This document shows, piece by piece, positions 768 to 24,121 of a stretch of DNA of 24,644 nt. The notes under the pieces were generated by a model that saw only the letters and a list, made by a program, of their open reading frames with translations, was not told the origin of the DNA and did no database searches. The first letter of the stretch is position 1, and each line of letters begins with the position of its first letter. Source of the stretch: a virus; IMG/VR virus record IMGVR_UViG_3300031705_000851, positions 1 through 24,644 of that record; one strand, 5' to 3'. Both the position numbers and the translations under genes were made by a program.

Positions 768-904
768 AATATATCACATTAGCATTAAGTACATTAGTGT
801 TATCGGGCTGTTTCTTATCAAGCAACTGGACGCAACGTTTACCTGCAGACGTTGACTATGAAGCAAGACACAAAGACACATTAGAACGCAGACACAATGG
901 TTAA
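764..904 (+). CDS. Small lipoprotein (46 aa)
   Basis: The N-terminus is a compact lipoprotein signal: MKY, a hydrophobic run of about 11 residues, then the lipobox LSGC with the lipidated cysteine at residue 16. The predicted mature peptide is only 31 residues, charged and helical-looking (about residues 31-46 are rich in R, H, E and K). This is the size and layout seen in phage outer-membrane spanins and immunity lipoproteins, but no lysis genes are visible nearby, so that role is only a suggestion. It is coupled to the upstream gene by an ATGA overlap. Its TAA stop lies inside the late-promoter box at 901-908. Confidence 0.65.
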   Translation: MKYITLALSTLVLSGCFLSSNWTQRLPADVDYEARHKDTLERRHNG

Positions 905-908
905 ATAC
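901..908 (+). promoter_or_regulatory. T4-type late promoter box, leaderless arrangement
   Basis: TTAAATAC is followed by exactly four bases and then the ATG at 913. With T4 late promoter geometry (TATAAATA at -13 to -6), +1 would be the A of the ATG. There is no Shine-Dalgarno before 913. The same box-N4-ATG layout occurs at 4264, 6985, 17350, 23065 and, on the reverse strand, 18645. Confidence 0.6.
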
Positions 909-912
909 AGCT

Positions 913-1905
913 ATGTTATACTCTCGCATAGAACAAATACAATTTGACCTAAATGTCACTTGTAATGCCTTCTGTCCAGGTTGTCATCGATATACGTTTG
1001 TTGACAACCAAATGTATCTCAACCCACATTTAAACTTTAACTCCAGTATAAGTATAGACATTATTGAACGTGTAATGCAAAACCCACGACTAAATGATGA
1101 TGTATGGATTGACATGGTAGGACTGGTCGGAGAGCCAGTTGCACACAAAGACTTCTTAGAAATTACTGATGTTATATACAAGTATAGACCTAATGCAAAT
1201 CTAAACGTACACACAAATGGTGGACTTAGATCTGTAGAATTCTTTACTGCACTTGGTGATAAAATAAAAAGACAAGGACCCGGAAGTTCAGTTACATTTA
1301 GTATTGATGGACTAAAAGATACAAATAACATATATCGTATAGGTGTTATTTGGGAAAAAATAATGGAAAATGCAAAAGCAATAGTTAGTACTGGCGCTAG
1401 TGTAACTTGGAAATGTATTGAGTTTCCATGGAATACACATCAGCAAAATGAAATAGAACAATCAGCTAAAGACATGGGCATGAATTTCCGTTGGGAACCT
1501 AATAGAGATAAAGGGTCTAAGCGTATGGAATTATACATGGACGCTATTAATAATAGGTTTCATAAAAAAACTCCAGCTCCTATGAATGTAAATCCCAATG
1601 CAGAAATTGGACAAGGATACGAGTTTGATTTCCCTGAAATTAAAGACCGTTGTTTTGATGAAAAAGCAATCTATATAAACTATGATGGTAGAGTATTGCC
1701 GTGTTGTATGTTTAATGCAGCCACAACAGATGAACAATACATGAAAGAAATAGACTCATTTATATATGGAACAAACAGCAAATGGAATGATTTGCATACA
1801 TATAGTTTAGAAGAAGTAATGAATAACAACTGGTGGCGAATGTTGTTTGATAGCTTAACTACAGCACCTTGTACAGTTTGTGTGCATTCTTGTGAAAAAA
1901 TATAA
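913..1905 (+). CDS. Radical SAM/SPASM-like protein, copy 1 (330 aa)
   Basis: The radical SAM cluster motif CNAFCPGC (C17, C21, C24; CxxxCxxC) binds the SAM-coordinated 4Fe-4S cluster. It is followed by GLVGEP (the glycine-rich strand after the cluster), the HTNGG segment and FSIDGL, as in radical SAM barrels. The C-terminal part has SPASM/twitch-like cysteines: C before a DxG segment, PCC (about 238-240 of the domain), and a terminal CxxCxxxC (C320, C323, C327), suggesting auxiliary Fe-S clusters. Such enzymes often modify peptides or RNA; the substrate cannot be deduced. It is closely related to the gene at 4276 and more distantly to that at 23078. It has a late box and no ribosome binding site. 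Confidence 0.85.
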   Translation: MLYSRIEQIQFDLNVTCNAFCPGCHRYTFVDNQMYLNPHLNFNSSISIDIIERVMQNPRLNDDVWIDMVGLVGEPVAHKDFLEITDVIYKYRPNANLNVHTNGGLRSVEFFTALGDKIKRQGPGSSVTFSIDGLKDTNNIYRIGVIWEKIMENAKAIVSTGASVTWKCIEFPWNTHQQNEIEQSAKDMGMNFRWEPNRDKGSKRMELYMDAINNRFHKKTPAPMNVNPNAEIGQGYEFDFPEIKDRCFDEKAIYINYDGRVLPCCMFNAATTDEQYMKEIDSFIYGTNSKWNDLHTYSLEEVMNNNWWRMLFDSLTTAPCTVCVHSCEKI

Positions 1906-3743: not shown

Positions 3744-4253
3744 ATGTTAGTAACACAAGCACAAATGTTTGCAACAGCGGCACACGCCGCAATTGGACAA
3801 AAACGTAAATACAGTGGAGATGATTATATTGTTCATCCAGCTCGCGTAGCCAGTATTGTTACACAACATGGCGGAACAGATGAAATGGTTGCTGCTGCCT
3901 GGTTACATGATACTGTGGAAGATACAGATGTATCACCTGATCTTATCCTTGATATGTTTGGTGGGAAAGTTGCTGATATTGTCGAAGGACTTACTGATAT
4001 TAGTTTAGCAACAGACGGCAACCGAGCAAAGCGTAAATCAATCGATTGTATACACAGTGCAAATTCATCAACTGAATCACAATTTGTAAAGTGTGCTGAT
4101 ATTATTGATAACAGTTGGGATATTGCTGACAATGATAAGAGTTTTGCAAAGGTATACAAATCAGAAGTATTTGTTTTATTGCATGCAATGACTAAAGTAA
4201 AGCATACCGAGATTTGGGATCAAGCAATGCATAGCGTCGAGTTAATGCCTTAA
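3744..4253 (+). CDS. Small HD-domain (p)ppGpp hydrolase-like protein (169 aa)
   Basis: The order of motifs matches the hydrolase domain of RelA/SpoT and the small MESH1-type enzymes. These are HPARVA (H31), WLHDTVEDT (H55, D56, E59, D60), and a distal KCADIIDN (D119, N123). The size is close to single-domain MESH1 proteins, and no synthetase or regulatory domain is present. The expected reaction is removal of pyrophosphate from (p)ppGpp, using Mn2+ held by H31, H55, D56 and D119. In a phage this could blunt the host stringent response during infection, a role others have proposed for phage MazG; here that is inference. A good GGAG ribosome binding site precedes the ATG. Confidence 0.8.
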   Translation: MLVTQAQMFATAAHAAIGQKRKYSGDDYIVHPARVASIVTQHGGTDEMVAAAWLHDTVEDTDVSPDLILDMFGGKVADIVEGLTDISLATDGNRAKRKSIDCIHSANSSTESQFVKCADIIDNSWDIADNDKSFAKVYKSEVFVLLHAMTKVKHTEIWDQAMHSVELMP

Positions 4254-4263
4254 TTGGCATTAA

Positions 4264-4271
4264 CTAAATAC
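4264..4271 (+). promoter_or_regulatory. T4-type late promoter box, leaderless arrangement
   Basis: CTAAATAC is followed by four bases (acgt) and the ATG at 4276, with no Shine-Dalgarno. Predicted +1 is the A of the ATG. Confidence 0.6.
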
Positions 4272-4275
4272 ACGT

Positions 4276-5250
4276 ATGCTTTATAAAACAATTGATACTG
4301 TAGAGTTTGATCTAAATACAGTGTGCAATAGTTATTGTCCACCATGCCACAGATACACAGTGCAAGACGGTGAACTATTTCACAATCCTTACGTAAAACT
4401 TAATTCAAACTTAGACCTGTCTGTAATCGAACGTGTGTTTGAGAACAGTAGATTAACTGATGATTGTTTTGTTGATTTAGTAGGACTAGTAGGTGAACCA
4501 ATTGCACATCCAAACTTTATGGAAATTATAGATATTATTTATAAGCACAAACCTGATGCTGCAATTAATTTGCACACAAATGGTGGATTACGTACTGAGA
4601 AGTTTTTCTTTGATCTAGCTAAAAAGTTTAATAAGAATAGTTGGATTAAATTTTCATTAGACGGATTAGAAGATACAAATGGTATATATCGTATTGGTGT
4701 AGACTATAATAAAGTAGTTGCAAATATGCGAGCATTTATAGATGGTGGTGGCCGTGCAATTTGGAAGTTTATTACATTTGAATGGAATAAACATCAAGTA
4801 GAAGAAGCAGAAGCATTAGCCAAAGAATATGGTTGCTATAAATTTCAACAAGATTGGGATGTCAATGACCTAGATATAGATATATTCATGGCCGCAGCTC
4901 AGAAGAAAATTAATAAAAAAGTTGCATCAAAAGCAGCAGTTTTTATTGATGTACCAAGTAATAGATCAACCAAAATTAAAGATAAATGTTTTTCGTATAA
5001 AAAAATATATGTAAATGCACATGGATATGTTATTCCGTGTTGTATGTTTAATGGTGCATTTACATATGAATCAATGCGTGACAAAACACTTAACTTTATT
5101 AAAGAAGATAGAGAAGAAGATTGGAACAGTTTATATAACAATAGCTTAGAAACTATAATGAGCAATACATGGTGGCAAAAGTTAAAAGACAGTTTTGAAA
5201 CAAAACCATGTGATATCTGTGTAAGCTCGTGTGGTGTTAAATTAGATTGA
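4276..5250 (+). CDS. Radical SAM/SPASM-like protein, copy 2 (324 aa)
   Basis: It is a clear paralogue of the protein at 913. Both start MLY, share the cluster motif (here CNSYCPPCHRYT; C17, C21, C24), LVGLVGEP, LHTNGGLR, FSLDGLEDTNGIYRIGV and the C-terminal PCCMFN. The last cysteines are CDICVSSC (C312, C315, C319). Two different proteins of one tight subfamily suggest two related substrates or a pair working together. The substrate is unknown. Like copy 1 it has a late box four bases upstream and no ribosome binding site. It needs two or more Fe-S clusters per chain, which links it to iscS and iscU in this window. Confidence 0.85.
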   Translation: MLYKTIDTVEFDLNTVCNSYCPPCHRYTVQDGELFHNPYVKLNSNLDLSVIERVFENSRLTDDCFVDLVGLVGEPIAHPNFMEIIDIIYKHKPDAAINLHTNGGLRTEKFFFDLAKKFNKNSWIKFSLDGLEDTNGIYRIGVDYNKVVANMRAFIDGGGRAIWKFITFEWNKHQVEEAEALAKEYGCYKFQQDWDVNDLDIDIFMAAAQKKINKKVASKAAVFIDVPSNRSTKIKDKCFSYKKIYVNAHGYVIPCCMFNGAFTYESMRDKTLNFIKEDREEDWNSLYNNSLETIMSNTWWQKLKDSFETKPCDICVSSCGVKLD

Positions 5251-5532: not shown

Positions 5533-6372
5533 ATGTATTATAAACGACAACTATTAGATATGCAAAAGCGAGCAGAGCTTGCATTAGAACAATCGCCAGC
5601 ACTAGCAACAACATTTGCAGATAGATTTCAAATGGCAGAAGATTTGTTTGCAAGGTTAGATAAACAAATGTTTATTGACTGCAATGATATTGATCCAACT
5701 GATCCATACAAAATTGAAACATGGAAAGACGAAAATGTTCCAGAAAAGAGTTTTGCACTAAAACATCAAGGTCCTGTATTTGGATTTGATATTGATACTA
5801 TGGTAGGGCCAGAGAGTTGGCATGATGAAACATCTGGAATGGATGATTATGTATTGCGTAGAAAATGTTATATATATGATTGGACAGCAGATAAACTAAA
5901 AGAAGACTTTCCAGAACTAACATATTTTACAAATTTACATAAAGAATTTGTTCCTGTATTGGATTATTATTATAACGAATGTTTTAACGATCAGTATATA
6001 GATGTTGAAAAAGTTTTACACAAACTTATGGTTATTGAATATTCGCATCCATCTGCAAATCAAGGCAATATTGTAGACCACAAGAAACACAATACAGAGC
6101 GGTTTGGTGATATACATTGTGATGAAACACTAGGTGGATTACATCTAGGAGAAAACGTAGTAGAGTTTTATATAGAAAACCATTTAACAAACGAACGTAA
6201 GAGTGTAGAAGGATTATCTAATAATAATACACTTTGGTTCTTTGGAGAATTTAGTGAACGTAGCGGGTGGCAACCAAGCATGCACGGCATGCAGCACAAC
6301 GCAGAAGACGATACCTGGAAAAGGTATAGTATAATTTTTGATTTACAAGCAAGATATAAAGGAGAAGAATAA
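5533..6372 (+). CDS. 2OG-Fe(II) oxygenase-like protein (279 aa)
   Basis: The C-terminal half carries the facial triad of 2-oxoglutarate/Fe(II) dioxygenases. H195xD197 is in IHCDETLGG, the distal histidine is H251 (or H255) in MHGMQHN, and R264 in KRYSIIFDL would bind 2OG. The N-terminal half is helical and specific to this protein. Such enzymes hydroxylate proteins, nucleobases or small molecules; the substrate is unknown. ATG 5533 with AAGG five bases upstream is preferred over the ATG at 5503, which would overlap the preceding gene by 29 bases. The stop overlaps the clpP start (TAATG), so it is co-translated with ClpP. Confidence 0.7.
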
Positions 6373-6962
6373 TGGCATTAGTACCAATGGTGGTCGAACA
6401 AACAGGCCGCGGAGAACGCAGTTACGATATTTACAGTAGACTATTAAAAGATCGTATTGTAATGTTAACTGGAGAAGTAAACGACATGACAGCAAATTTA
6501 GTTGTTGCACAAATGTTGTTCTTAGAATCACAGAATAGTTCAGACCCTATTAATTTTTACATTAACTCACCAGGCGGTGCAGTAACAGCAGGTCTTGGAA
6601 TATATGACACAATGCAATTTATTAAATCGCCAGTAAGTACAATTGTAATGGGACAAGCATGTAGCATGGGTTCATTCCTATCACAAGCAGGTGAAGCAGG
6701 ACAACGTCTTGTATTACCAAATTCACGTACAATGATTCACCAACCAAGTGGCGGTGCAGGTGGACAAGCAACTGATATGCAGATCCAAGTAAATGAGATT
6801 ATTAAAATTAAAAAGAACTTAACAGAGATCTATGTTAAACATAACAGTGTTGGCAAGACGTATGACGAACTTGTAGACGCAATGGAACGTGATAACTTTA
6901 TGTCTGCAGAAGAAGCAGTTGCGTTCGGATTAGCCGATAAAGTTATAGAAAGAAAAGCATAA
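6372..6962 (+). CDS. clpP: ATP-dependent Clp protease proteolytic subunit ClpP (196 aa)
   Basis: It is a full-length ClpP serine peptidase. The triad is S98 in GQACSMGS, H123 in MIHQPSGG and D174 in [14 protein letters not shown] (oxyanion region) and the C-terminal [13 protein letters not shown] are also conserved. There is no long propeptide. ClpP forms a double heptamer and needs an AAA+ partner; a matching ClpX is encoded at 10186 in this window. It starts on the stop of the oxygenase gene (TAATG). It may work in a phage-specific ClpXP or mix with host subunits. Family assignment is very secure. Confidence 0.97.
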
Positions 6963-6984: not shown

Positions 6985-6993
6985 TATAAATAC
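6985..6993 (+). promoter_or_regulatory. T4-type late promoter, consensus box, leaderless arrangement
   Basis: TATAAATAC contains the exact T4 late consensus TATAAATA. Four bases (ttat) separate it from the ATG at 6998, so +1 would be the A of the start codon. There is no Shine-Dalgarno in the 35-base intergenic gap. Confidence 0.7.
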
Positions 6994-6997
6994 TTAT

Positions 6998-7693
6998 ATG
7001 AAAATATATGACATACTAGAATCACTAACAGAGGGTCCAAATGACCCTGCTATATTTAAAGCAATCTTTCTTGCGGGTGGCCCAGGCTCCGGCAAAAGTT
7101 ACGTAGCAAGTAAAATACTATCAGGACAAGGTCTTAGACCAGTTAATAGCGATGATGTATATGAATACTTAGCACAGAAGAAAGATATGGATATTGGTGA
7201 TCCAGAAGTAATTGCTAGCGTAGATGGTCAAGAAGTAAGACAACATGCTAAACATATCTCTGATAAAAGACAGAAACATTTGATAGATGGTCGTATTGGT
7301 TTAATTATTGATGGTACAGGAAAAGACGTAACAAAAGTAAAAGAGCAAAGTGAGGCATTACGAAAATTGGGATACGAAACAATGATGGTGTATGTAAACA
7401 CTAGTCTTGATGTTGCTCAAACACGTAATACACAAAGAAAAAGAAAACTACCTGCAGATTTAGTAACAAACATGTGGAACAAGTTACAAAACAACCTAAT
7501 GGGTTTCCAACAAATATTTGGTGCAAGTAACTTCCATGTAGTTGATAATAGTGGTGGATTAGAAGATCCTTCAAGAGCTGAAAATTTTGACAAAGTTTAT
7601 AAAAGTGTTAGAGCATTTATTGCTTCTCCAGTAAAAAGTAGAATAGCTACAAAATGGATAGAAGATCAGCATCAAAGTAAAAAGACCACTTAA
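6998..7693 (+). CDS. P-loop kinase / zeta-toxin-like ATPase (231 aa)
   Basis: A Walker A motif GGPGSGKS occupies residues 27-34, followed by NSDD near 50 (a typical kinase acidic motif), IIDGTGKD near 105, and a basic TRNTQRKRKL lid around 148. This arrangement is that of the AAA_33/zeta-toxin and polynucleotide-kinase-like small-molecule kinases. Members phosphorylate nucleic acid ends, nucleotides or UDP-sugars; this one cannot be assigned. No antitoxin-like neighbour is evident, so a toxin role is not supported. It is under a consensus late promoter with no leader. Confidence 0.75.
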   Translation: MKIYDILESLTEGPNDPAIFKAIFLAGGPGSGKSYVASKILSGQGLRPVNSDDVYEYLAQKKDMDIGDPEVIASVDGQEVRQHAKHISDKRQKHLIDGRIGLIIDGTGKDVTKVKEQSEALRKLGYETMMVYVNTSLDVAQTRNTQRKRKLPADLVTNMWNKLQNNLMGFQQIFGASNFHVVDNSGGLEDPSRAENFDKVYKSVRAFIASPVKSRIATKWIEDQHQSKKTT

Positions 7694-9740: not shown

Positions 9741-10193
9741 ATGAAACCAAACGATAATAGCAGTTATACAGTAACAGCACCAGATTTATTCCTATCAGAA
9801 AATGGAGTAAACGTTTTAATAACAAGCACAGATATAGAACTAGTTAATGGAATCAAATTATTATTTGAAAAGTTTATCAGCACCAGTGTCATTTTTAATG
9901 TTCAGTTAACTCAATCAGACCCAGCAACTATGCCATGGATGTGGCACGTTAGTAGAACATGTGAATATATGGTAGTTGACCTTGATACATGTGCGTGGGA
10001 AGATATTATGGCTGCGTTATTAAAAACAAAAACACCTAACCATACTGTATTATTTTATACAGCAAAAGGAGTTAGGAGAGAAGCAATTAAGTTAATTAAT
10101 GCAACAAGCAGTTATATTACAATTACAAACTTAGAAGAATTAAACAAGTTCTTAGACATTGATACCAGGTACCCAGGCATGCCAGATGAGTAG
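9741..10193 (+). CDS. Hypothetical protein upstream of ClpX (150 aa)
   Basis: It starts three bases after the previous stop, with no clear ribosome binding site, and ends by overlapping the clpX start. The sequence alternates strands and helices. VLITSTDIELVNGIKLLFEKF near 25 and YMVVDLDTCAWEDIMAALLK near 73 look like a Rossmann- or receiver-like fold. The usual phospho-acceptor context is not convincing. Because it is translationally coupled to clpX it could be a partner or adaptor for the unfoldase, but nothing in the sequence proves this. Confidence 0.65.
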   Translation: MKPNDNSSYTVTAPDLFLSENGVNVLITSTDIELVNGIKLLFEKFISTSVIFNVQLTQSDPATMPWMWHVSRTCEYMVVDLDTCAWEDIMAALLKTKTPNHTVLFYTAKGVRREAIKLINATSSYITITNLEELNKFLDIDTRYPGMPDE

Positions 10194-11388
10194 TAATCCA
10201 TATTGCAATTTTTGCGGTAAAAACAAACATCAAACTAAAAAACTTTTAGCCGGAAATGATGGAACGCACATTTGTGATGGATGTGTTGATCTTTGTCATG
10301 ACATACTTATTAAAGAAAAAGCCAAAGCAACAGCACAACCAGAATCAGCAGCACGCCTTAAAGTACCTACACCGCTAGAATTACATGAACACTTAAATAG
10401 ATACGTAATAGGACAAACCACCGCTAAAAAGACGCTTAGTGTAGCTGTATACAACCATTACAAGCGTATTAAGAACACAACACAAGTAAAGCTACAAAAG
10501 AATAACGTGTTAATTGCAGGACCAACAGGAACAGGCAAAACACTAATTGCAGCCACATTGGCATCATATTTAGATGTTCCATTTGTAGTTACAGATGCAA
10601 CCACTATTACTGAAAGTGGATATGCAGGAGATGATTCAGAAGTACTAATAGATAAGCTATTACAAGCGGCCGACTATGATGTAGAAAAAGCACAATTAGG
10701 TATTATATACGTAGACGAAATTGATAAAAAAGCAAAGCGTAATGACATGGTAACATTAAGCCGTGATGTAAGTGGCGAAGGTGTACAACAGAGCTTGCTA
10801 AAATTGATGGAAGGTGTTACAATAACAGTACCGAACAAACATGGAAGCCAACCAGAGAAAGTAGATATTGATACAACTAATATTCTGTTTATAGTTGGCG
10901 GTGCGTTTATAGGGTTAGATGATATTGTAAAGCAGCGTATAGGAAAAGGCAAAATTGGCTTCAATGATGACCAAGCAAAAACAATAGATAATTGGGAAGA
11001 ACACTTACAAACCCCTGACTTAGTCAAGTATGGACTTATTCCAGAGTTTGTAGGAAGATTACCAAGTGTAAACGTTTTACACCAATTAACCAAGGAAGAA
11101 CTGATAAGAATACTAACAGAACCACAAGATTCAATAATAGATCAAATAAAAGTGCTTTTTTCACTTGACAAAATAGAAATAGAGTTTAATATAAAAGCAT
11201 TGGAAGAGATTGCATCTATTGCAATAGAACAAGACCTCGGAGCAAGAGGTTTAAGAAAGATACTGGATTCAGCACTTGTTGAAACACAATACCAGTTACC
11301 ACAACTAAGAGAGAGCGGGGTGTCAAAAATTATAATAACAGATAAAGTAATCACCGATGGTCACACACCATTAATGGTTAAAGGATAA
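10186..11388 (+). CDS. clpX: ATP-dependent Clp protease ATP-binding subunit ClpX (400 aa)
   Basis: It is a complete ClpX. The N-terminal zinc domain uses C7, C10, C30 and C33. Walker A is GPTGTGKT (112-119), Walker B is IIYVDE (173-178), and sensor 2 is GARGLR near the C-terminus. The IGF loop (257-259), which docks on ClpP, is intact, so it should pair with ClpP at 6372. Two substrate-gripping loops differ from E. coli: the pore loop GYVG is GYAG (145-148), and the RKH loop reads NKH. ATG 10186 overlaps the upstream gene and gives the canonical N-terminus. ClpX recognises ssrA tags ending LAA, as encoded by the tmRNA at 22767. Confidence 0.96.
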   Translation: MSSNPYCNFCGKNKHQTKKLLAGNDGTHICDGCVDLCHDILIKEKAKATAQPESAARLKVPTPLELHEHLNRYVIGQTTAKKTLSVAVYNHYKRIKNTTQVKLQKNNVLIAGPTGTGKTLIAATLASYLDVPFVVTDATTITESGYAGDDSEVLIDKLLQAADYDVEKAQLGIIYVDEIDKKAKRNDMVTLSRDVSGEGVQQSLLKLMEGVTITVPNKHGSQPEKVDIDTTNILFIVGGAFIGLDDIVKQRIGKGKIGFNDDQAKTIDNWEEHLQTPDLVKYGLIPEFVGRLPSVNVLHQLTKEELIRILTEPQDSIIDQIKVLFSLDKIEIEFNIKALEEIASIAIEQDLGARGLRKILDSALVETQYQLPQLRESGVSKIIITDKVITDGHTPLMVKG

Positions 11389-11389
11389 T

Positions 11390-11911
11390 ATGAAAAATTC
11401 ATCAAATAGTCCTCAAACCAGATTTCGTATTACAGCTAACGAAAAGATAAGAGCTACAGAAGTAAGAGTAATTGCACGTGATGAGGATAGTGTTGTAATG
11501 TCAACAGCTAGCGCATTACATTCAGCAAGGAATCAAGGATTGGATTTAATCCTTATTAATGAAAAAGCAGATCCACCATTATGTAGAATCGTAGAAATGA
11601 ATAAATATTTGTACGAACAGAAACAAAAAGAAAAAGCAGAGAAAAAACGCCAACGTGATAATCTAACTGATCAGAAAGAAATCCGTATGGGCTTAAACAT
11701 TGATCGCAATGATATGCAAACTAAAGCAAATCATGCTAAAAAGTTTATAGAACAAAAAGCAAAAGTCACGGTGACAATTGTTTTAAAAGGCCGAGAAAGA
11801 GGCAAACAGGACATGGCAAGGGACTTGTTGACTAGCTTTGCAGAAATGCTAGAAGTTGAGTATGATACGATAAATAGTCAAAACAACAGAGTCATAGGGC
11901 GTGTAAAGTAG
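11390..11911 (+). CDS. infC: Translation initiation factor IF-3 (173 aa)
   Basis: Both IF-3 domains are present. The N-terminal domain has RITANEKIRATEVRVI and the signature PPLCRIVEMNKYLYE near 62-76. A lysine-rich helical linker follows, then the C-terminal domain has KEIRMGLNID, AKKFIEQKAKVTVTIVLKGRE and a short end. IF-3 binds the 30S platform, prevents premature 50S joining and checks the start codon. The start is ATG with AAAGGATAA upstream, not the rare AUU used for autoregulation in many bacteria. It begins one base after the clpX stop and is followed by bS21. IF-3 also influences the use of leaderless mRNAs, which is relevant to the leaderless late genes predicted here. Confidence 0.95.
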   Translation: MKNSSNSPQTRFRITANEKIRATEVRVIARDEDSVVMSTASALHSARNQGLDLILINEKADPPLCRIVEMNKYLYEQKQKEKAEKKRQRDNLTDQKEIRMGLNIDRNDMQTKANHAKKFIEQKAKVTVTIVLKGRERGKQDMARDLLTSFAEMLEVEYDTINSQNNRVIGRVK

Positions 11912-11917
11912 GAACAA

Positions 11918-12190
11918 ATGGAAAAAAGAAAATATCCACCTAGAGATAGGAACAACGATAGAGATAACAAAAATAATGGACTGTCAGTTGAAGTCAGAAA
12001 CAACAACGTAGATCAGGCCATGAGAAAGTTAAAAAAGAAAATAATGAATGATGGAATGTTACAAGAGTTACGCGAACGCCAGCATTTTACAAGTAATACA
12101 GAAAAACGATTGAAGCGCCTGGCTGCGGCACGTGCTAGAGATCGTAAGCGTATGGCCAAGGATAAGATAGACAAAAAAAGGCTATACTAA
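11918..12190 (+). CDS. rpsU: Ribosomal protein bS21 (90 aa)
   Basis: The core SVEVRNNNVDQAMRKLKKK followed by RERQHFTSNTEKRLKR and the Lys/Arg-rich C-terminal tail ending RLY are the signatures of bS21. About 20 extra charged residues precede the core. bS21 lies on the 30S platform near the anti-Shine-Dalgarno region and affects mRNA selection. Phage-encoded bS21 is known from phages of marine bacteria and is thought to replace the host protein. The ribosome binding site AGGAA overlaps the infC stop, so the two are co-translated. The pairing with IF-3 points to deliberate retuning of initiation. Confidence 0.93.
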   Translation: MEKRKYPPRDRNNDRDNKNNGLSVEVRNNNVDQAMRKLKKKIMNDGMLQELRERQHFTSNTEKRLKRLAAARARDRKRMAKDKIDKKRLY

Positions 12191-12198
12191 AAGAATTT

Positions 12199-12242
12199 GT
12201 ATACATGTAGTATACGAATAGGCGAGACGCCGAAAGGGTCTC
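12199..12242 (+). promoter_or_regulatory. Leader of hsp20 with inverted repeat and GAAA hairpin
   Basis: GTATAC-N5-GTATAC (12199-12215) is an inverted repeat. Downstream, GAGAC/GTCTC plus CC/GG close a GAAA tetraloop with one bulged G (12224-12242). It could be an operator plus a stabilising 5' hairpin or a thermosensor for Hsp20; the hairpin does not cover the AAGGAG ribosome binding site at 12263-12268. No convincing -35/-10 pair was found. Confidence 0.45.
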
Positions 12243-12275
12243 ATTATAAACATCTTGCTTAAAAGGAGATAAAAG

Positions 12276-12701
12276 ATGAAAACATTAACAACACTTGATC
12301 TGCAGAAGATCGCACCATATGCAGTTGGATTTGACAGAATAATTTCTGACATGTTTCAATACGCAGATAATAACGTAGCAAGCACAGGCTACCCACCATA
12401 TAACATTCGCAAAGAAGGTGACAAGTTTCAAATTGAAATTGCACTAGCTGGTGTTACCAAAGAAGATTTAGAAATCAACTTAGAAGATGGACAGCTAACA
12501 ATCTCACATGACCCAGAGGAAACTCAAGTCGATGTAGAGTATTTGCACAGAGGTATTGCACAACGCAAGTTCAAGCGTACTTGGACACTTAGCGATGATG
12601 TAATTGTAAAAGGTGCTCAAATGGAAAACGGAATGCTTTATGTAGAATTAGAGCGTATTGTACCAGATGAGAAAAAACCACGTACAATTAAAATCGATTA
12701 A
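12276..12701 (+). CDS. Small heat-shock protein, Hsp20/IbpA type (141 aa)
   Basis: The alpha-crystallin domain is complete. PPYNIRKEGDKFQIEIALAG opens it, KEDLEINLEDGQLTI follows, then YLHRGIAQRKFKRTWTL and NGMLYVELERIVP. The C-terminal IxI-like TIKID anchors oligomers. The N-terminus (LQKIAPYAVGFDRI) is like IbpA. It is an ATP-independent holdase that keeps unfolded proteins soluble. sHSP genes are common in T4-like phages of cyanobacteria. The setting between IF-3/bS21 and ClpS, with ClpX and ClpP nearby, makes it part of a proteostasis cluster. A strong AAGGAG ribosome binding site is present. Confidence 0.93.
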   Translation: MKTLTTLDLQKIAPYAVGFDRIISDMFQYADNNVASTGYPPYNIRKEGDKFQIEIALAGVTKEDLEINLEDGQLTISHDPEETQVDVEYLHRGIAQRKFKRTWTLSDDVIVKGAQMENGMLYVELERIVPDEKKPRTIKID

Positions 12702-12780: not shown

Positions 12781-13083
12781 ATGTCATCAACATCAACAGC
12801 AGCAGTAGCAGAAAAACAAACGTTAGCATCACCTAACAAATATATGGTTATTTTTCTAAATGACAACGTAACACCTATGGAATATGTAATCCAAGTACTA
12901 TTAGCATTCTATGGTAAAACAACAGAAGAAGCAAATGATATTACAGTGGAAGTACATGAAAAGGGTCGATCTATAGCAGGCATGTATAGTTACGAAGTAG
13001 CTGAACAAAAATGTATTGAAACTGTTACAGACGCAAGAAAGCATAACTATCCACTTGATGTAGTTATGGAAGAAACTACCTAA
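12781..13083 (+). CDS. clpS: ClpS adaptor protein (100 aa)
   Basis: The ClpS fold is evident: YMVIFLNDNVTPMEYVIQVL (residues 21-40), VEVHEKG with H59, YEVAEQK and YPLDVVMEE at the end. The N-degron pocket residues N27, D28, M33 and H59 correspond to E. coli N34, D35, M40 and H66. The next Asp of the usual NDD is Asn here. ClpS delivers N-end-rule substrates to ClpA in bacteria. No ClpA is visible in this window, so it would use host ClpA or alter substrate choice. Its N-terminal tail (about 18 residues) is of a length that could still engage the unfoldase. Confidence 0.93.
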   Translation: MSSTSTAAVAEKQTLASPNKYMVIFLNDNVTPMEYVIQVLLAFYGKTTEEANDITVEVHEKGRSIAGMYSYEVAEQKCIETVTDARKHNYPLDVVMEETT

Positions 13084-17349: not shown

Positions 17350-17357
17350 CTAAATAC
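17350..17357 (+). promoter_or_regulatory. T4-type late promoter box, leaderless arrangement
   Basis: CTAAATAC, four bases (tagt), then ATG at 17362. It supports 17362 rather than the in-frame ATG at 17332, which lies upstream of the box. Confidence 0.6.
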
Positions 17358-17361
17358 TAGT

Positions 17362-18342
17362 ATGAGCAAAATAAATCTAATACCAAACTTAATACAACAA
17401 CTAACTGCTACTATTCCACAGGAAGCAAAGTATGAGATTGTAAAAAAGTATGAGAAAGAAATGTTATTCAAGCGTATGATGTTATTTGCATACAATCCAT
17501 GGATAGATTTTAAACTACAACACTTTGTGCCTAAGCATCAAGGTAAAATGTTCGGTATGGGTATAACTAAATTTATGCATATGTTAGAAGAGATTGTAGC
17601 TAACCAATTAGATACCAAAGATGCAGAGTTTGGATTTAACATGGCATTTTTGCATATAGACACACTACAAGCACCTATTATGCTTGCACTAATTAATCAA
17701 ACACTTGGCGAACAACTAGGTATTACACCAGAAACAATAAATCGTGTCTGGCCTAATTCAATACATACATATCCATTACGTACAGCTATGGCGTCATCAC
17801 ACAAACAGTATGACAACTTTCCAGCTTCTGTACAAACATACAGTACAGGATTACGTGTAAATGTTATTATATATGATAACACAGTATCTTATAGACAAAA
17901 AGATGGCACTGTAATTGAAGGATGGGAACATTGGGACGAACAGTTTATTAATCTTGCACAAGGACAAAATACTGTATTTGATGGACATGCAGTTGCTACT
18001 AAAGACAATAAAATAGTAGAAACTGACAACGACAAAGTATTAGATGCCGAAGTAGAGGATATTAGATTTATATTTTGGGATGTAATACGATATGATGGAT
18101 TTGTTCAAGGAGAAGATACACGTATAGGATACAATTGGCGTTATAATGGACTAGAACATATGATGATGTTAGCGTATGCAAAAAACCAAGAACCGTGCTA
18201 TGATATTTTAAAAGCTGAAATGGTAGGGTCTAAAGAACAGTTGGAAGCAACTGTTAAGAATTATAGTAAAGCAGTTATAAAGTCATTGGATAATACTTGG
18301 TCTAACGGATCAACACTTAACGAGATTATTACTTCGCAATAA
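17362..18342 (+). CDS. Degenerate ATP-dependent DNA ligase (T4 gp30-like, 326 aa), predicted inactive
   Basis: The whole chain lines up with T4 DNA ligase: the helical N-terminal region, INRVWPNSI (T4 ANKVWPGLI), FPASVQTYSTGLR (T4 FPAFAQLKADGAR), VFDGHAVA (motif III), IRFIFWDVI (motif IIIa) and AVIKSLDNTWSNGS (around motif IV). The residues that make a ligase work are lost. The nucleotidyl lysine of motif I is Tyr (Y160) and its Asp is Thr (T162). The motif III Glu is His, the motif IV Glu is absent, and the motif V lysines read NEIIT. The OB-fold domain is missing (T4 ligase is 487 aa). The frame is intact, so it is probably a repurposed DNA-end or nick-binding protein. It is late-promoted and leaderless. 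Confidence 0.75.
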   Translation: MSKINLIPNLIQQLTATIPQEAKYEIVKKYEKEMLFKRMMLFAYNPWIDFKLQHFVPKHQGKMFGMGITKFMHMLEEIVANQLDTKDAEFGFNMAFLHIDTLQAPIMLALINQTLGEQLGITPETINRVWPNSIHTYPLRTAMASSHKQYDNFPASVQTYSTGLRVNVIIYDNTVSYRQKDGTVIEGWEHWDEQFINLAQGQNTVFDGHAVATKDNKIVETDNDKVLDAEVEDIRFIFWDVIRYDGFVQGEDTRIGYNWRYNGLEHMMMLAYAKNQEPCYDILKAEMVGSKEQLEATVKNYSKAVIKSLDNTWSNGSTLNEIITSQ

Positions 18343-18640
18343 CAATTTTTTCTAATCTATGTAAATGAATACGTGTGTTTCTAATATATCGCCATACTTT
18401 ACCACGCCCATTATCCACTTCGAATATAGACTCAGTAATACCAATACTAATGATAGTTGCTTTTTCCTGATCCAAGAATACAACGTCACCTGGTTCAAAC
18501 CCTGGTTTCATTTTCCAACGTATACTTGCTACTAAATCAGTAACTAGCTCTTTTAACATTAACGCAAATATACCAGACAATAGTAATGCCAATACTGGCA
18601 CTATGTAGGTAGTTAAACTTTCTTCTAATTGATTTTCCAT
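18329..18640 (-). CDS. Small MscS-like membrane protein (103 aa), only reverse-strand gene
   Basis: One transmembrane helix at about residues 12-32 is followed by a soluble domain. KPGFEPGDVVFLDQEKATII, then SIGITESIFEV and KVWRYIRNTRI match the beta domain of MscS channels (F.pGD.V......V..Ig......wryipN). It lacks the pore-lining helix and C-terminal cage, so it is unlikely to be a channel alone. The start is ATG at 18640-18638 because a GTAAATAC box precedes it by four bases. In-frame upstream ATGs would place the box inside the gene. It converges with and overlaps the ligase-like gene by 14 bases. Confidence 0.75.
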   Translation of the reverse strand: MENQLEESLTTYIVPVLALLLSGIFALMLKELVTDLVASIRWKMKPGFEPGDVVFLDQEKATIISIGITESIFEVDNGRGKVWRYIRNTRIHLHRLEKIVIAK

Positions 18641-18644
18641 ACTT

Positions 18645-18652
18645 GTATTTAC
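18645..18652 (-). promoter_or_regulatory. Reverse-strand T4-type late promoter box, leaderless arrangement
   Basis: On the reverse strand this reads GTAAATAC, then aagt, then ATG. It sits back to back with a forward ATAAATAT box (18654-18661), which could serve the gene at 18689. Confidence 0.6.
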
Positions 18653-21067: not shown

Positions 21068-22282
21068 ATGACAGCTCCAACATATATGGATTATTCAGCA
21101 ACAACACCGGTAGACCACCGAGTTGCTAAAAAAATGGCAGAATGCCTAACAACAGAAGGCACATTTGGAAATGCAGCTTCACGCTCTCATTATTATGGGT
21201 GGCAAGCCGAAGCGGCAGTAGACAAAGCACGTAAACAAGTTGCAGATTTAGTAGGAGCAGATCCTAAAGAAATAGTATGGACATCTGGCGCCACTGAATC
21301 AAACAATTTAGCAATTAAAGGTATTGCACACTTTTACCAAAAGCAAGGTAAACATATCATCACACTAAAGACAGAACACAAAGCAGTATTAGACACTTGC
21401 CGTCAGCTAGAACGTGAAGGATTTGAAGTTACTTATATGAATCCATTACCAAGTGGACTGTTGGACATAGAAGAGTTCAAATCTATTTTAAGAGAAGATA
21501 CAATTCTAGCGTCATTTATGCACGTTAATAATGAAATTGGTGTTATACAAGACTTACATACAATTGGTGATATTTGCAGAGCAAACAAAACATTCTTTCA
21601 TGTAGATGCAGCACAGTCAGTTGGTAAACTCCCAATTAACTTAACAGAACTTCCAGTTGATTTAATGAGTTTCTCAGCACACAAGATTTATGGTCCAAAA
21701 GGCATGGGTGCATTGTATGTATCACGTAAGCCAAGAGTTAGGCTTGAAGCACAAATGCATGGTGGTGGACACGAACGTGGAATGCGTTCAGGCACATTAG
21801 CTACACATCAAATTGTTGGAATAGGCGAATCATTTGCAATAGCACAAGAAATGATGGCAGAAGAAGAAGTTAGAACACGTAATCTTAGAGATAGGTTATA
21901 TGCTGGCTTTTCGGACATGGAAGAAGTAAAAGTAAATGGCGATATGGAACAACGTATTGGCAATAACTTAAATATCAGTTTTAATCACGTTGAAGGTGAA
22001 TCATTAATGATGGCAATAAATGGTATTGCAGTATCATCTGGTTCAGCATGTACATCAGCAAGTTTAGAACCGTCTTACGTTCTTAGAGCATTAGGATTGC
22101 CAGATGAATTATCGGCCAGCTCTATTCGTTTCAGTGTAGGACGCTTTACAACTGAAGAAGATGTAGATAACGCAATTGTACTCGTTAGAGAAAAAGTAGA
22201 AAAGTTAAGAGAACTATCGCCACTATGGGATATGTACAAAGATGGAATTGATTTAAACACAGTAGTATGGGCTGCTCATTAA
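21068..22282 (+). CDS. iscS: Cysteine desulfurase IscS (404 aa)
   Basis: It is full length with the same numbering as E. coli IscS. The PLP lysine is K206 in [12 protein letters not shown], and catalytic C328 is in the mobile loop [18 protein letters not shown]104 and D180 are also in place. The end ([21 protein letters not shown]) matches the IscU-binding tail. It takes sulfur from cysteine and passes it as persulfide to the scaffold IscU, encoded 30 bases downstream, or to tRNA thiolation enzymes. IscR, HscA/B, ferredoxin and IscA are absent, so host partners would be needed. A dual promoter lies upstream; the ribosome binding site is weak. Confidence 0.96.
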
Positions 22283-22312
22283 GAGTAGTCTTAAATAAGC
22301 TAGGAGAAAATT

Positions 22313-22723
22313 ATGGCATATTCAGAAAAAGTAATGGATCATTATGAGAACCCACGTAATGTAGGTAAGTTTGATCCTAAAGAAAGTAATATTGGAACAG
22401 GAATGGTAGGAGCTCCTGCTTGTGGTGACGTAATGAGATTACAAATCCAAGTAGAAGATGGTATTATTACTGATGCTAAATTTAAAACATATGGTTGCGG
22501 TAGTGCAATTGCAAGTAGCAGTTTACTAACCACAATGGTAAAAGGTATGAATTTAGAAGAAGCTGGTGCAATCCAAAACATGGACCTTGCAGAAGAACTT
22601 GCATTGCCTCCAGTTAAGATTCACTGTAGTGTGTTAGCCGAAGATGCAATTAAATCTGCTATTGCAGATTATCAAGGCAAAAACCCAGTACCAGAAGGCG
22701 CCAATTATTTCGAAATTAAATAA
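22313..22723 (+). CDS. iscU: Fe-S cluster scaffold protein IscU (136 aa)
   Basis: All cluster ligands are present: C37 and D39 in APACGDVM, C62 in YGCGSA, and H104/C105 in KIHCSVL. The LPPVK motif (98-102) that HscA recognises is intact, so it should use the host chaperone. The C-terminal extension is slightly longer than E. coli IscU. It assembles 2Fe-2S and 4Fe-4S clusters from IscS sulfur. TAGGAG precedes the ATG. It shares a transcript with iscS, and the tmRNA promoter begins just after its stop. Confidence 0.96.
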   Translation: MAYSEKVMDHYENPRNVGKFDPKESNIGTGMVGAPACGDVMRLQIQVEDGIITDAKFKTYGCGSAIASSSLLTTMVKGMNLEEAGAIQNMDLAEELALPPVKIHCSVLAEDAIKSAIADYQGKNPVPEGANYFEIK

Positions 22724-22730
22724 ATAAAGG

Positions 22731-22761
22731 TTGACAATTTATACACTCTCATGTATAAATA
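22731..22761 (+). promoter_or_regulatory. Overlapping sigma70 and T4-late promoters for the tmRNA
   Basis: TTGACA (22731-22736) is 17 bases from TATAAA (22754-22759), and the same bases extend to TATAAATA (22754-22761), the exact late consensus. Both predict +1 at about G22767. TTATACA-N6-TGTATAA (22739-22758) is an inverted repeat covering the spacer and -10. Confidence 0.75.
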
Positions 22762-22766
22762 ACATT

Positions 22767-23032
22767 GTAACGTTGAAACAAGCTAAACGACGAGCTGGAC
22801 CTGGGGGCAGTACCCAGCAGCTCCACCATAAACACATTGCACAGTTAGTGTGCTTATGATGGGGCTGAACAAGGATCGACAGGCGGATTAATAGGCGAGT
22901 GGAGTTACCCGGATCTAAGCACGGTTATCGCGAAGAAACTTTATAATTGCAAATGACAATTATGCGCCAGAAATGGCCTTAGCAGCTTAGACTGCTAGTG
23001 AGGTAGCTATACCTTATTACCCAAACTAGTAG
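22767..23032 (+). ncRNA. ssrA: Permuted two-piece tmRNA, alphaproteobacterial type
   Basis: The acceptor piece comes first and ends CAGCTCCACCA at about 22827, with a T-arm CTGGG/CCCAG. The coding piece begins at 22861 with GGGGCTGA. GGGGCTG pairs with CAGCTCC over seven positions, including the G3-U70 wobble read by alanyl-tRNA synthetase. GGATCGAC follows as in other tmRNAs. The tag frame (22949-22990) reads ANDNYAPEMALAA-stop, starting GCA AAT GAC. The stop lies in the loop of TAGCAG/CTGCTA (helix 5). The spacer 22828-22860 would be excised. The tag ends LAA, a ClpX degron. The exact processed ends are estimates. Confidence 0.95.
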
Positions 23033-23059
23033 AAAGGGTGTCTTAGGGCACCCTTTTTT
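23033..23059 (+). terminator. Rho-independent terminator of the tmRNA
   Basis: AAAGGGTGTC pairs with GGCACCCTTT (one G-U) around TTAG, followed by a T run. Confidence 0.9.
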
Positions 23060-23064
23060 GTGAT

Positions 23065-23073
23065 TATAAATAC
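23065..23073 (+). promoter_or_regulatory. T4-type late promoter, consensus box, leaderless arrangement
   Basis: TATAAATAC, four bases (taac), then ATG at 23078. It sets the start of the third radical SAM gene at 23078 rather than at an upstream in-frame alternative start at 23060. Confidence 0.7.
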
Positions 23074-23077
23074 TAAC

Positions 23078-24121
23078 ATGATCTACTCAAAGAATCCTAA
23101 AATACTACAACTAGAATTAAGCAGTATGTGTAATGCATTATGCCTAGGATGTCAGCGAGTTGATCCAAATACATTTAATAGTGTACTACCCAGTATTCCA
23201 AAGAAAGAAATAATCGCAGTAGACATAATACGTAAATTAATTAATAGTCCTAGAATGTCTGGAATAGAAGAAGTAGAATTTTGTGGAACTATTGATGAAC
23301 CACTAATGCATCCAAACTTTATGGAAATCATAGATGTTATATATGAAGCAAATCCACTTATAGAAATAAAAATACATACAAATGCAAGTCTACGTACACC
23401 GCAGTTTTGGAAAGACTTAGCACACAAGCTATCTAAGTTTAAAGGACATAAAGTATTATTTGGTATAGATGGACTAGTTGACACACATGTTATATACAGA
23501 CAGCAAACAGACTTTGATCTTATTATTAGAAACGCAATACATTTTATAGGTGCAGGCGGTAAAGCACAATGGCAGTATATTATATTTCCATGGAACAAAC
23601 ATCAAGTAAATGAAGCACGTGATATGAGTAAACAAATTGGCTTTGCAGAATTTAAAACTCGTAATGACAGAAGTGGAGTAAGCGAAGATGGATTAAACGA
23701 AATCCGAAAAATACAACAAAATGGGGGAAAGTCTAAACTAGGCATTAATGCTAACAAATTCAATGGTTACAAAATTAGTTGTATGAACAAGGAAGATGAT
23801 ATGTTTCATGTTTCGTACGATAGTAGATTATGGCCATGTTGTTATTTTGGAAATGTGCAATACATGGGACCTACGTTGTATGATGAATTTAAAAAAAGAA
23901 TATTTGGGGTGTATGGAGAAGATTTTAATTTGCTCACTAAGCACACAGTAGAAGAAATATTAGATTCAGAGTTATATAAAAATGATTTAGTAGAGTCTTG
24001 GAATAATCCAATCGGGTGTGGTAGCAAAGATAAAGTAAATCGGTGTGCAATGTCATGTAGTGTAAAAGCACTTGAAACAAGACCAATTGCAACAGCTCAC
24101 GAAGTTACAAAAAACTTTTAA
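23078..24121 (+). CDS. Radical SAM/SPASM-like protein, copy 3 (347 aa)
   Basis: The cluster motif is CNALCLGC (C18, C22, C25). It shares with copies 1 and 2 the layout IDEPLMHPNFMEIIDVIY, IHTNASLRT, FGIDGLVDTHVIYR and IFPWNKHQVNEA. The C-terminal cysteines are C in KISCMNKED, WPCCYF, and CGSKDKVNRCAMSC. It is more diverged: LHTNGG becomes IHTNAS and the last cysteine group is spread wider. This implies a different substrate within the same fold. Its neighbours are the tmRNA and tRNA-Glu. It has no ribosome binding site and is predicted leaderless from the late box. Confidence 0.85.
   Translation: MIYSKNPKILQLELSSMCNALCLGCQRVDPNTFNSVLPSIPKKEIIAVDIIRKLINSPRMSGIEEVEFCGTIDEPLMHPNFMEIIDVIYEANPLIEIKIHTNASLRTPQFWKDLAHKLSKFKGHKVLFGIDGLVDTHVIYRQQTDFDLIIRNAIHFIGAGGKAQWQYIIFPWNKHQVNEARDMSKQIGFAEFKTRNDRSGVSEDGLNEIRKIQQNGGKSKLGINANKFNGYKISCMNKEDDMFHVSYDSRLWPCCYFGNVQYMGPTLYDEFKKRIFGVYGEDFNLLTKHTVEEILDSELYKNDLVESWNNPIGCGSKDKVNRCAMSCSVKALETRPIATAHEVTKNF

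Follow-up and report, generated by a model that had tools for sequence, protein, structure and literature searches.

We found that the genes for initiation factor IF-3 (infC) and ribosomal protein bS21 (rpsU) adjoin one another in a genome fragment of a marine phage, and that this tightly spaced unit is conserved among related phages with the self-limiting start codon of bacterial infC replaced by an ordinary one. While phage IF-3 and phage bS21 are known separately, and are known together in some huge phages, neither the conserved adjoining pair nor its start-codon difference turned up in the literature searched. Taken together, the pair and its start codon lead to a testable mechanism, namely an initiation-factor supply freed from feedback.

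An adjoining infC-rpsU pair in a viral genome fragment

The stretch of DNA analyzed here (the window) is a 24,644-base virus fragment deposited in IMG/VR as IMGVR_UViG_3300031705_000851. It was originally predicted to carry IF-3 and bS21 side by side, and this was borne out by profile searches in which both products scored over curated cut-offs. The infC product (173 aa) reached 81.7 bits against Pfam IF3_N (cut-off 26.9), 67.9 bits against IF3_C (cut-off 34.8) and 123.6 bits against TIGR00168 (cut-off 60), with PHROG matches as well. The rpsU product (90 aa) reached 50.2 bits against Ribosomal_S21 (cut-off 27) and 49.2 bits against TIGR00030 (cut-off 28.95), and was matched by solved bS21 chains, from E 6.5e-7. 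The local gene order is clpX-infC-rpsU-hsp20-clpS, with a gap of 1 nt between the clpX stop codon and the infC ATG and of 6 nt between the infC stop codon and the rpsU start. Shine-Dalgarno (SD)-like sequences precede both genes of the pair (Table 1). From the gene spacing we infer that infC and rpsU are co-translated.

Table 1. Coordinates of the main features of the window.
Feature	Position	Strand	Basis or remark
TAAATA-N5-ATG, radical SAM gene	902..915, ATG 913	+	sequence
TAAATA-N5-ATG, radical SAM gene	4265..4278, ATG 4276	+	sequence
clpP, ClpX partner protease	6372..6962	+	PF00574 256 bits
TAAATA-N5-ATG, zeta-toxin-like kinase gene	6987..7000, ATG 6998	+	sequence
clpX alternative start	TTG at 10159		upstream of the clpX start given below
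clpX	10186..11388	+	first of the clpX-infC-rpsU run; NF003745 503 bits, cut-off 359
SD-like AAAGGA of infC	11380..11385	+	sequence; inside clpX 3' end
infC, IF-3, ATG start	11390..11911	+	Pfam, NCBIfam, PHROG, fold, start-codon comparison
SD-like AGGA of rpsU	11910..11913	+	sequence; overlaps infC stop codon
rpsU, bS21	11918..12190	+	profiles; N-terminal extension of ~22 residues
hsp20 structured leader, ROSE-thermometer-like	12191..12275	+	z -4.1; covariation; Rfam
hsp20, small heat-shock protein	12276..12701	+	PF00011 64.7 bits; synteny
clpS, adaptor	12781..13083	+	PF02617 89.1 bits; synteny
TAAATA-N5-ATG	17351..17364, ATG 17362	+	sequence
TAAATA-N5-ATG	18638..18651, ATG at 18640	-	sequence
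TAAATA-N5-ATG, third radical SAM gene	23067..23080, ATG 23078	+	sequence

The window bS21 carries an N-terminal extension, whereas the bS21 of the likely host starts at the core MPAIKV. Such extensions have been reported for the bS21 of huge phages (PMC7162821). The phage translation-redirection model of the same article asks for an extended N-terminus, which the window bS21 has, and for a phage genome, as which the window is identified by its IMG/VR record, its viral relatives and a cultured phage.

The adjacency is not the host order. IscS and IscU adjoin one another in the window (21068-22723), and IscS is up to 85% identical to marine gammaproteobacterial IscS, with Candidatus Thioglobus and SUP05 records among its best 80 matches, which points to a likely Thioglobaceae-like host. 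Twelve gammaproteobacterial genomes selected by their IscS yielded IF-3 in 12/12 and bS21 in 11/12, and the two genes lay on different contigs in all 11 genomes with both. Next to the isc genes, the window also encodes a tmRNA of permuted alphaproteobacterial type (22727-23059; LAA-ending tag ANDNYAPEMALAA), which was found by Rfam, with none listed by ARAGORN, although IscS suggests a gammaproteobacterial host. The same mismatch between tmRNA and host has been described in Melnitz, a phage of OM43 (PMC9004378).

Conservation of the pair among related phages

Complete infC and rpsU genes at spacings of -8 to +10 nt were present in 34 viral records, always in the order infC then rpsU. These records were collected from IMG/VR scans with both proteins and with alignments of them, from profile searches of fetched DNA and from named phages. 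They comprise 19 distinct records at 95% and 8 at 70% IF-3 identity, and include the window and Vibrio phage 2.275.O. A 35th record (L110), whose IF-3 is cut by the contig end, was left out, while the window and L002, which are nearly the same virus, are both counted. The pair was found in 13 of the 19 distinct contigs from two IF-3 scans and in 25 of the 80 loci kept from the bS21 scan (out of 306 confirmed); because the scans were seeded by pair-bearing sequences, these fractions describe relatives and not all phages. Duplicate fetches of one contig were counted once in both the 19-contig and the 34-record figures. The six IF-3 contigs without an adjoining bS21 were L007, L094, L102, L103, L104 and L105, and in L102 a bS21 gene lies ~2.1 kb from IF-3.

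The infC-rpsU junction varies by lineage (-8, -4, 0 and +2 to +10 nt), so the tight order of the two genes has outlasted sequence change. The pair is embedded in a larger block with the conserved order clpP-zeta kinase-SNase-clpX-infC-rpsU-hsp20-clpS-GMP reductase. In most relatives clpX lies 5' of infC, but it is missing from this slot in L095-L101; L115, L122 and L124 have the block without infC, and L007 and L094 have it without rpsU (in L120 the upstream sequence was too short to judge). Since infC, rpsU and clpX are each missing somewhere, the unit is not obligate. Pairwise dN/dS values were 0.13-0.32 for IF-3 (10 pairs), 0.13-0.31 for bS21 (10 pairs) and 0.09-0.15 for ClpX (6 pairs), and both infC and rpsU are under purifying selection. 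Distances between IF-3 sequences correlated with those between bS21 sequences (r 0.90, 171 pairs of 19 records), a value uncorrected for shared ancestry that we do not take as proof of joint function.

Searches of a phage collection with the window bS21 gave no match at E 1e-5, whereas the HTVC008M bS21 matched 35 records at E 0.01. A DNA-level search with the block returned 32 phage records, and annotations among the 20 listed included clpP, clpX and head maturation protease. In the literature searched, with limited search terms, we found no report of an adjoining infC-rpsU pair in phages.

Several known phages share parts of this arrangement. The bS21 of pelagiphage HTVC008M (PMC6375957) and of the phages in PMC9723584 belongs to the same family and likewise comes from marine or aquatic phages, but the HTVC008M genome is without IF-3, whereas the window bS21 follows directly after infC. 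Jumbo phages RaK2, CBB, GAP32, XbC2, Atu_ph07 and Phosso encode members of the IF-3 family like the window, and the four jumbo-phage IF-3s that were aligned are 32-39% identical to the window protein. In RaK2, Atu_ph07, Phosso and XbC2 the IF-3 gene adjoins genes for Clp or other ATP-dependent proteases; for XbC2, the record annotates the gene after IF-3 as ATP-dependent Clp protease and our scan labelled it ClpS-like. Unlike the window, the genomes of RaK2 and XbC2 lack bS21, and in Atu_ph07 and Phosso bS21 is not the next gene to IF-3. In Sinorhizobium phage AP-J-162, clpX adjoins IF-3 as it does in the window, but S21 (gp532) is not a neighbor of IF-3 (gp547); the presence of IF-3, S21 and L7/L12 in this one genome has been proposed to serve translation redirection (PMC11242549). 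The cultured jumbo Vibrio phage 2.275.O (MG592671) carries IF-3, then bS21 after a 10 nt gap, then a ClpS-like gene.

Phage infC begins with an ordinary start codon

Bacterial infC encodes a two-domain IF-3 like the phage gene, but it lies apart from rpsU and differs in its start codon. When SD-spaced starts were picked for proteobacterial infC, all 42 were AUU, AUC or AUA (AUU 24, AUC 12, AUA 6), with two of the 42 rows also having an in-frame ATG or TTG candidate. Starts of infC in the likely hosts are AUU. By comparison, no start of this kind was assigned in any of 34 phage rows, and the window gene starts with ATG. A script found 19 ATG, 4 GTG and 2 TTG starts among the phage rows, and the nine rows without a script-found SD were listed with ATG, or with TTG in L132 and L133. 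These 34 rows differ from the 34 pair records in that they include L007 and L094, which are without bS21, and omit L002 and L246. We found no report of this difference between phage and bacterial infC in the same limited literature search.

Autoregulation of IF3 works through its own AUU or AUC start, and a change from AUU to AUG abolished autocontrol in work cited by the same source (PMC5472188). Furthermore, AUG, GUG and UUG escape discrimination by IF3 (PMC4611024). Given the ordinary start of the phage gene and this known biology, phage infC should lack the feedback, and host infC should be repressed as IF-3 rises.

Structure, residues and ancestry of the phage IF-3

In the predicted model of the window IF-3 (mean pLDDT 79, pTM 0.43), a helix links the N-domain to the C-domain, and the model aligned with 30S-bound IF-3 (5lmn_X) at Z 14.4 over 160 residues with an rmsd of 4.8. 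Several residues of the IF-3 C-domain have specific roles. Using E. coli numbering anchored on an alignment with solved IF-3 chains, we found K110, D106, G132 and R133 kept in 24/24 IF-3 rows of the clade. Other positions diverged: R99 was present in 2/24 clade rows versus 41/42 bacterial ones, H137 in 0/24 versus 42/42, R131 in 12/24 versus 42/42 and R147 in 5/24 versus 31/42. The phage IF-3s, which are not nearest to the likely-host IF-3 and in most or all rows lack R99 and H137, which are near-invariant in bacteria, may therefore act in a non-standard way, and a relaxed phage IF-3 that tolerates leaderless messages may be compatible with the same absences. However, the solved IF-3 u86575 (chain 5me0_Y/1tif in the alignment), which we take to be that of Geobacillus, carries S99 and K131, and a loss of proof-reading is therefore not proven by these changes. 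The 13 other-phage rows of the residue comparison do not include L250 (CAKLQH020000014.1), which is filed as Acinetobacter phage MD-2021a, carries thrS, infC, rpmI, rplT and other bacterial genes and resembles a bacterial contig.

The IF-3 tree placed all 42 bacterial rows to the same side of a branch (94/94). The phage rows were old and deep, with 19 clade rows grouping with 5 RaK2-like and Vibrio-phage rows (98/92). The tree has long branches and two flagged joins, and its finer placement was not used. Recent capture of infC from a host was rejected, as the bacterial rows stand apart (94/94) and no phage row fell among ten Thioglobaceae-like IF-3s. The five distinct rows from L095-L101 lie across a branch from the 19 other clade rows, which, long branches considered, tentatively suggests that another IF-3 came to occupy this slot in these phages. 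As clpX is missing there as well, an in-place replacement of infC is possible.

Possible functions of the pair

The reading we prefer, to which we assign a probability a little short of even, is that the pair would act as a feedback-free supply of initiation factors by which host 30S subunits are kept on phage messages. It starts from gene identity, adjacency, conservation, purifying selection and the start-codon difference, all of which are observed. The last two genes of the clpX-infC-rpsU run would share one message and supply IF-3 and bS21 jointly, their translation being SD-led and probably coupled. Made from an ordinary NUG start, phage IF-3 would not throttle its own synthesis as the bacterial gene does, and it would keep rising as AUU-started host infC is repressed. 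With newly made IF-3 and bS21, the limited pool of 30S subunits would then stay free and complete and would go on initiating on phage messages, which are mostly SD-led. The phage proteins would be expected to bind host 30S, and the gain would go to phage mRNAs generally and not to leaderless ones. A redirection of translation by phage IF-3 and S21 has already been proposed in print (PMC7162821; PMC11242549), and a phage bS21 can be incorporated into ribosomes of E. coli (PMC6375957). The divergence of the phage IF-3s and the loss of single genes from the block count against our reading. In vitro, E. coli ribosomes with HTVC008M bS21 showed ~5% activity (PMC6375957), which would fit impairment as well as help.

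A role in ribosome upkeep strikes us as unlikely. Here IF-3 would serve chiefly in post-termination subunit splitting and rescue, and bS21 would repair 30S subunits from which it has been lost. The permuted tmRNA, clpX, clpP and clpS all lie within the same 24.6 kb, infC sits directly behind clpX, and a ribosome rescue role has been proposed for phage IF3 (PMC7824862). However, it is by neighborhood alone that IF-3 is tied to rescue, and L095-L101 retain infC-rpsU in a slot without clpX.

We give little credence to host shut-off, by which surplus phage IF-3 would repress AUU-started host infC and phage bS21 would impair the translation of host messages. The AUU starts of likely-host infC and the ~5% activity measured with phage bS21 agree with such a role, but that measurement used a mismatched host (PMC6375957). 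Moreover, SD leaders are common to host infC and most phage genes, so the selectivity of shut-off would need another determinant.

Leaderless-type genes and the pair

The original prediction went further and proposed that the pair could retune host ribosomes towards leaderless late genes in the window. Genes with leaderless-type starts do exist and are conserved. Counting TAAATA followed within 14 nt by an ATG that opens an ORF of at least 60 aa, we found six cases in the window, all at a gap of exactly 5 and none at other gaps from 0 to 14. In 21 related loci, near-duplicates included, there were 37 cases at gap 5 versus 13 at all other gaps from 0 to 14. This spacing would place the transcript start near the AUG. 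The TAAATA box is similar to the late promoter of T4 (TATAAAT according to PMC9004378), and the genes behind it look like T4-like late genes that are putatively leaderless. Out of 39 starts picked in the window, 22 had SD-like leaders, 5 were leaderless-type and 12 were neither; infC and rpsU are both SD-led. Three related radical SAM/SPASM-like proteins (913-1905, 4276-5250 and 23078-24121; the first identified by a profile test, the other two by similarity) all have leaderless-type starts. A zeta-toxin-like P-loop kinase (6998-7693) also has one, and it is conserved across many relatives.

The link between these genes and the pair was not borne out. In the form considered here, a relaxed-fidelity phage IF-3 would, for example, displace host IF-3 and stop rejecting 5'-terminal AUGs, an account that we now find quite improbable. 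The conserved excess of gap-5 starts (37 versus 13) agrees with it, as do IF-3 C-domains without R99 in 22/24, H137 in 24/24 and R131 in 12/24 rows, but the presumed Geobacillus IF-3 also has S99 and K131, and such changes alone need not relax IF-3. P-SSM2, S-PM2 and T4, which are without both genes, have few such starts (0, 1 and 1 by the ORF-start count, in 40-50 kb each), which also speaks for the account.

The natural absences of infC or rpsU allow a direct comparison, in which the leaderless hypothesis as stated gets a clear negative. The whole genome of HTVC008M, without IF-3, has 12 TAAATA-N5-ATG starts and no more than 3 at each of the other gaps from 0 to 25. L115, L122 and L124, also without IF-3, have 9 leaderless-type starts versus 1 (L122 and L124 being near copies), and L007 and L094, without bS21 in contigs of 46-48 kb, have 3. 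Conversely, Vibrio phage 2.275.O has the pair and, unlike the window, shows no enrichment of TAAATA-N5-ATG, with counts of 3/3/3 at gaps 5/6/4. Overall, the pair and leaderless-type starts do not co-occur consistently, a comparison that covers the TAAATA-N5-ATG motif only and includes several fragments whose missing gene could lie elsewhere. On this distribution, retuning towards leaderless genes was dropped as the main explanation. Without filtering, whole records gave gap 5/6/4 counts of 14/5/2 in HTVC008M, 6/7/0 in P-SSM2, 5/3/1 in S-PM2 and 10/2/0 in T4. Leaderless-type starts are numerous in the bS21-bearing HTVC008M, including at structural genes (L209, L251 and L252), but with so few genomes compared we do not claim a link with bS21.

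Published directions of effect also run against retuning. IF3 is listed as an inhibitor of leaderless translation, which is lowered by raised infC expression, and its effect in vitro is dual; infC mutants with relaxed start-codon choice boost leaderless expression (PMC9031893), which speaks in favor of a relaxed phage factor. Kasugamycin-induced 61S ribosomes, which are without bS1, uS2 and bS21, translate leaderless mRNAs selectively (PMC4929434), so that selectivity there comes with loss of bS21 and not with its supply. Unless the phage proteins behave unusually, added IF-3 and bS21 should thus shift initiation towards SD-led messages.

The clpX-infC-rpsU run might also be an exchange cassette, in which ClpXP/ClpS would strip host bS21 or IF-3 and phage versions (a feedback-free IF-3 with altered C-domain and an N-extended bS21) would replace them. 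We rate this as very improbable, and L095-L101, which have the pair in a slot without clpX, count against it. If it were true, 30S subunits of infected cells would have start-site preferences of their own. PMC9976891 speculates about a protease, encoded by bS21 phages, that would target the bS21 of the host, and the run would be a concrete candidate for such a system. Finally, that infC and rpsU are two useful genes without joint function, kept adjoining by a block that is conserved from clpP to GMP reductase and from which single genes drop out, has in our estimate only a slim chance of being correct, given that the infC-rpsU-clpS-like order recurs outside the clade in Vibrio phage 2.275.O and that a different IF-3 lineage fills the same slot in L095-L101.

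Further features of the window

The leader between rpsU and hsp20 contains a GCC-GAAA-GGG hairpin and a ATCTTGCTTAA element before the SD. Compensatory changes were seen at 8 of 13 predicted pairs in 10 sequences, and the best Rfam match was ROSE_3 (RF02523), a heat-shock thermometer, at 25.3 bits, under the gathering score of 43. The leader is conserved in the window, L003-L007, L110-L112, L117-L121, L123 and L125-L133. A similar RNA element lies 5' of a phage gene in L166-L169 that, named from its sequence start, is presumably dnaK. Both leaders are possible phage RNA thermometers; a limited literature search found no report of phage thermometers of this kind.

The window also encodes a stand-alone HD domain (3744-4253) that is like the hydrolase part of RelA/SpoT. 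It scored 57.7 bits against PF13328 and below the cut-off of TIGR00691, and its product is a possible phage ppGpp hydrolase.
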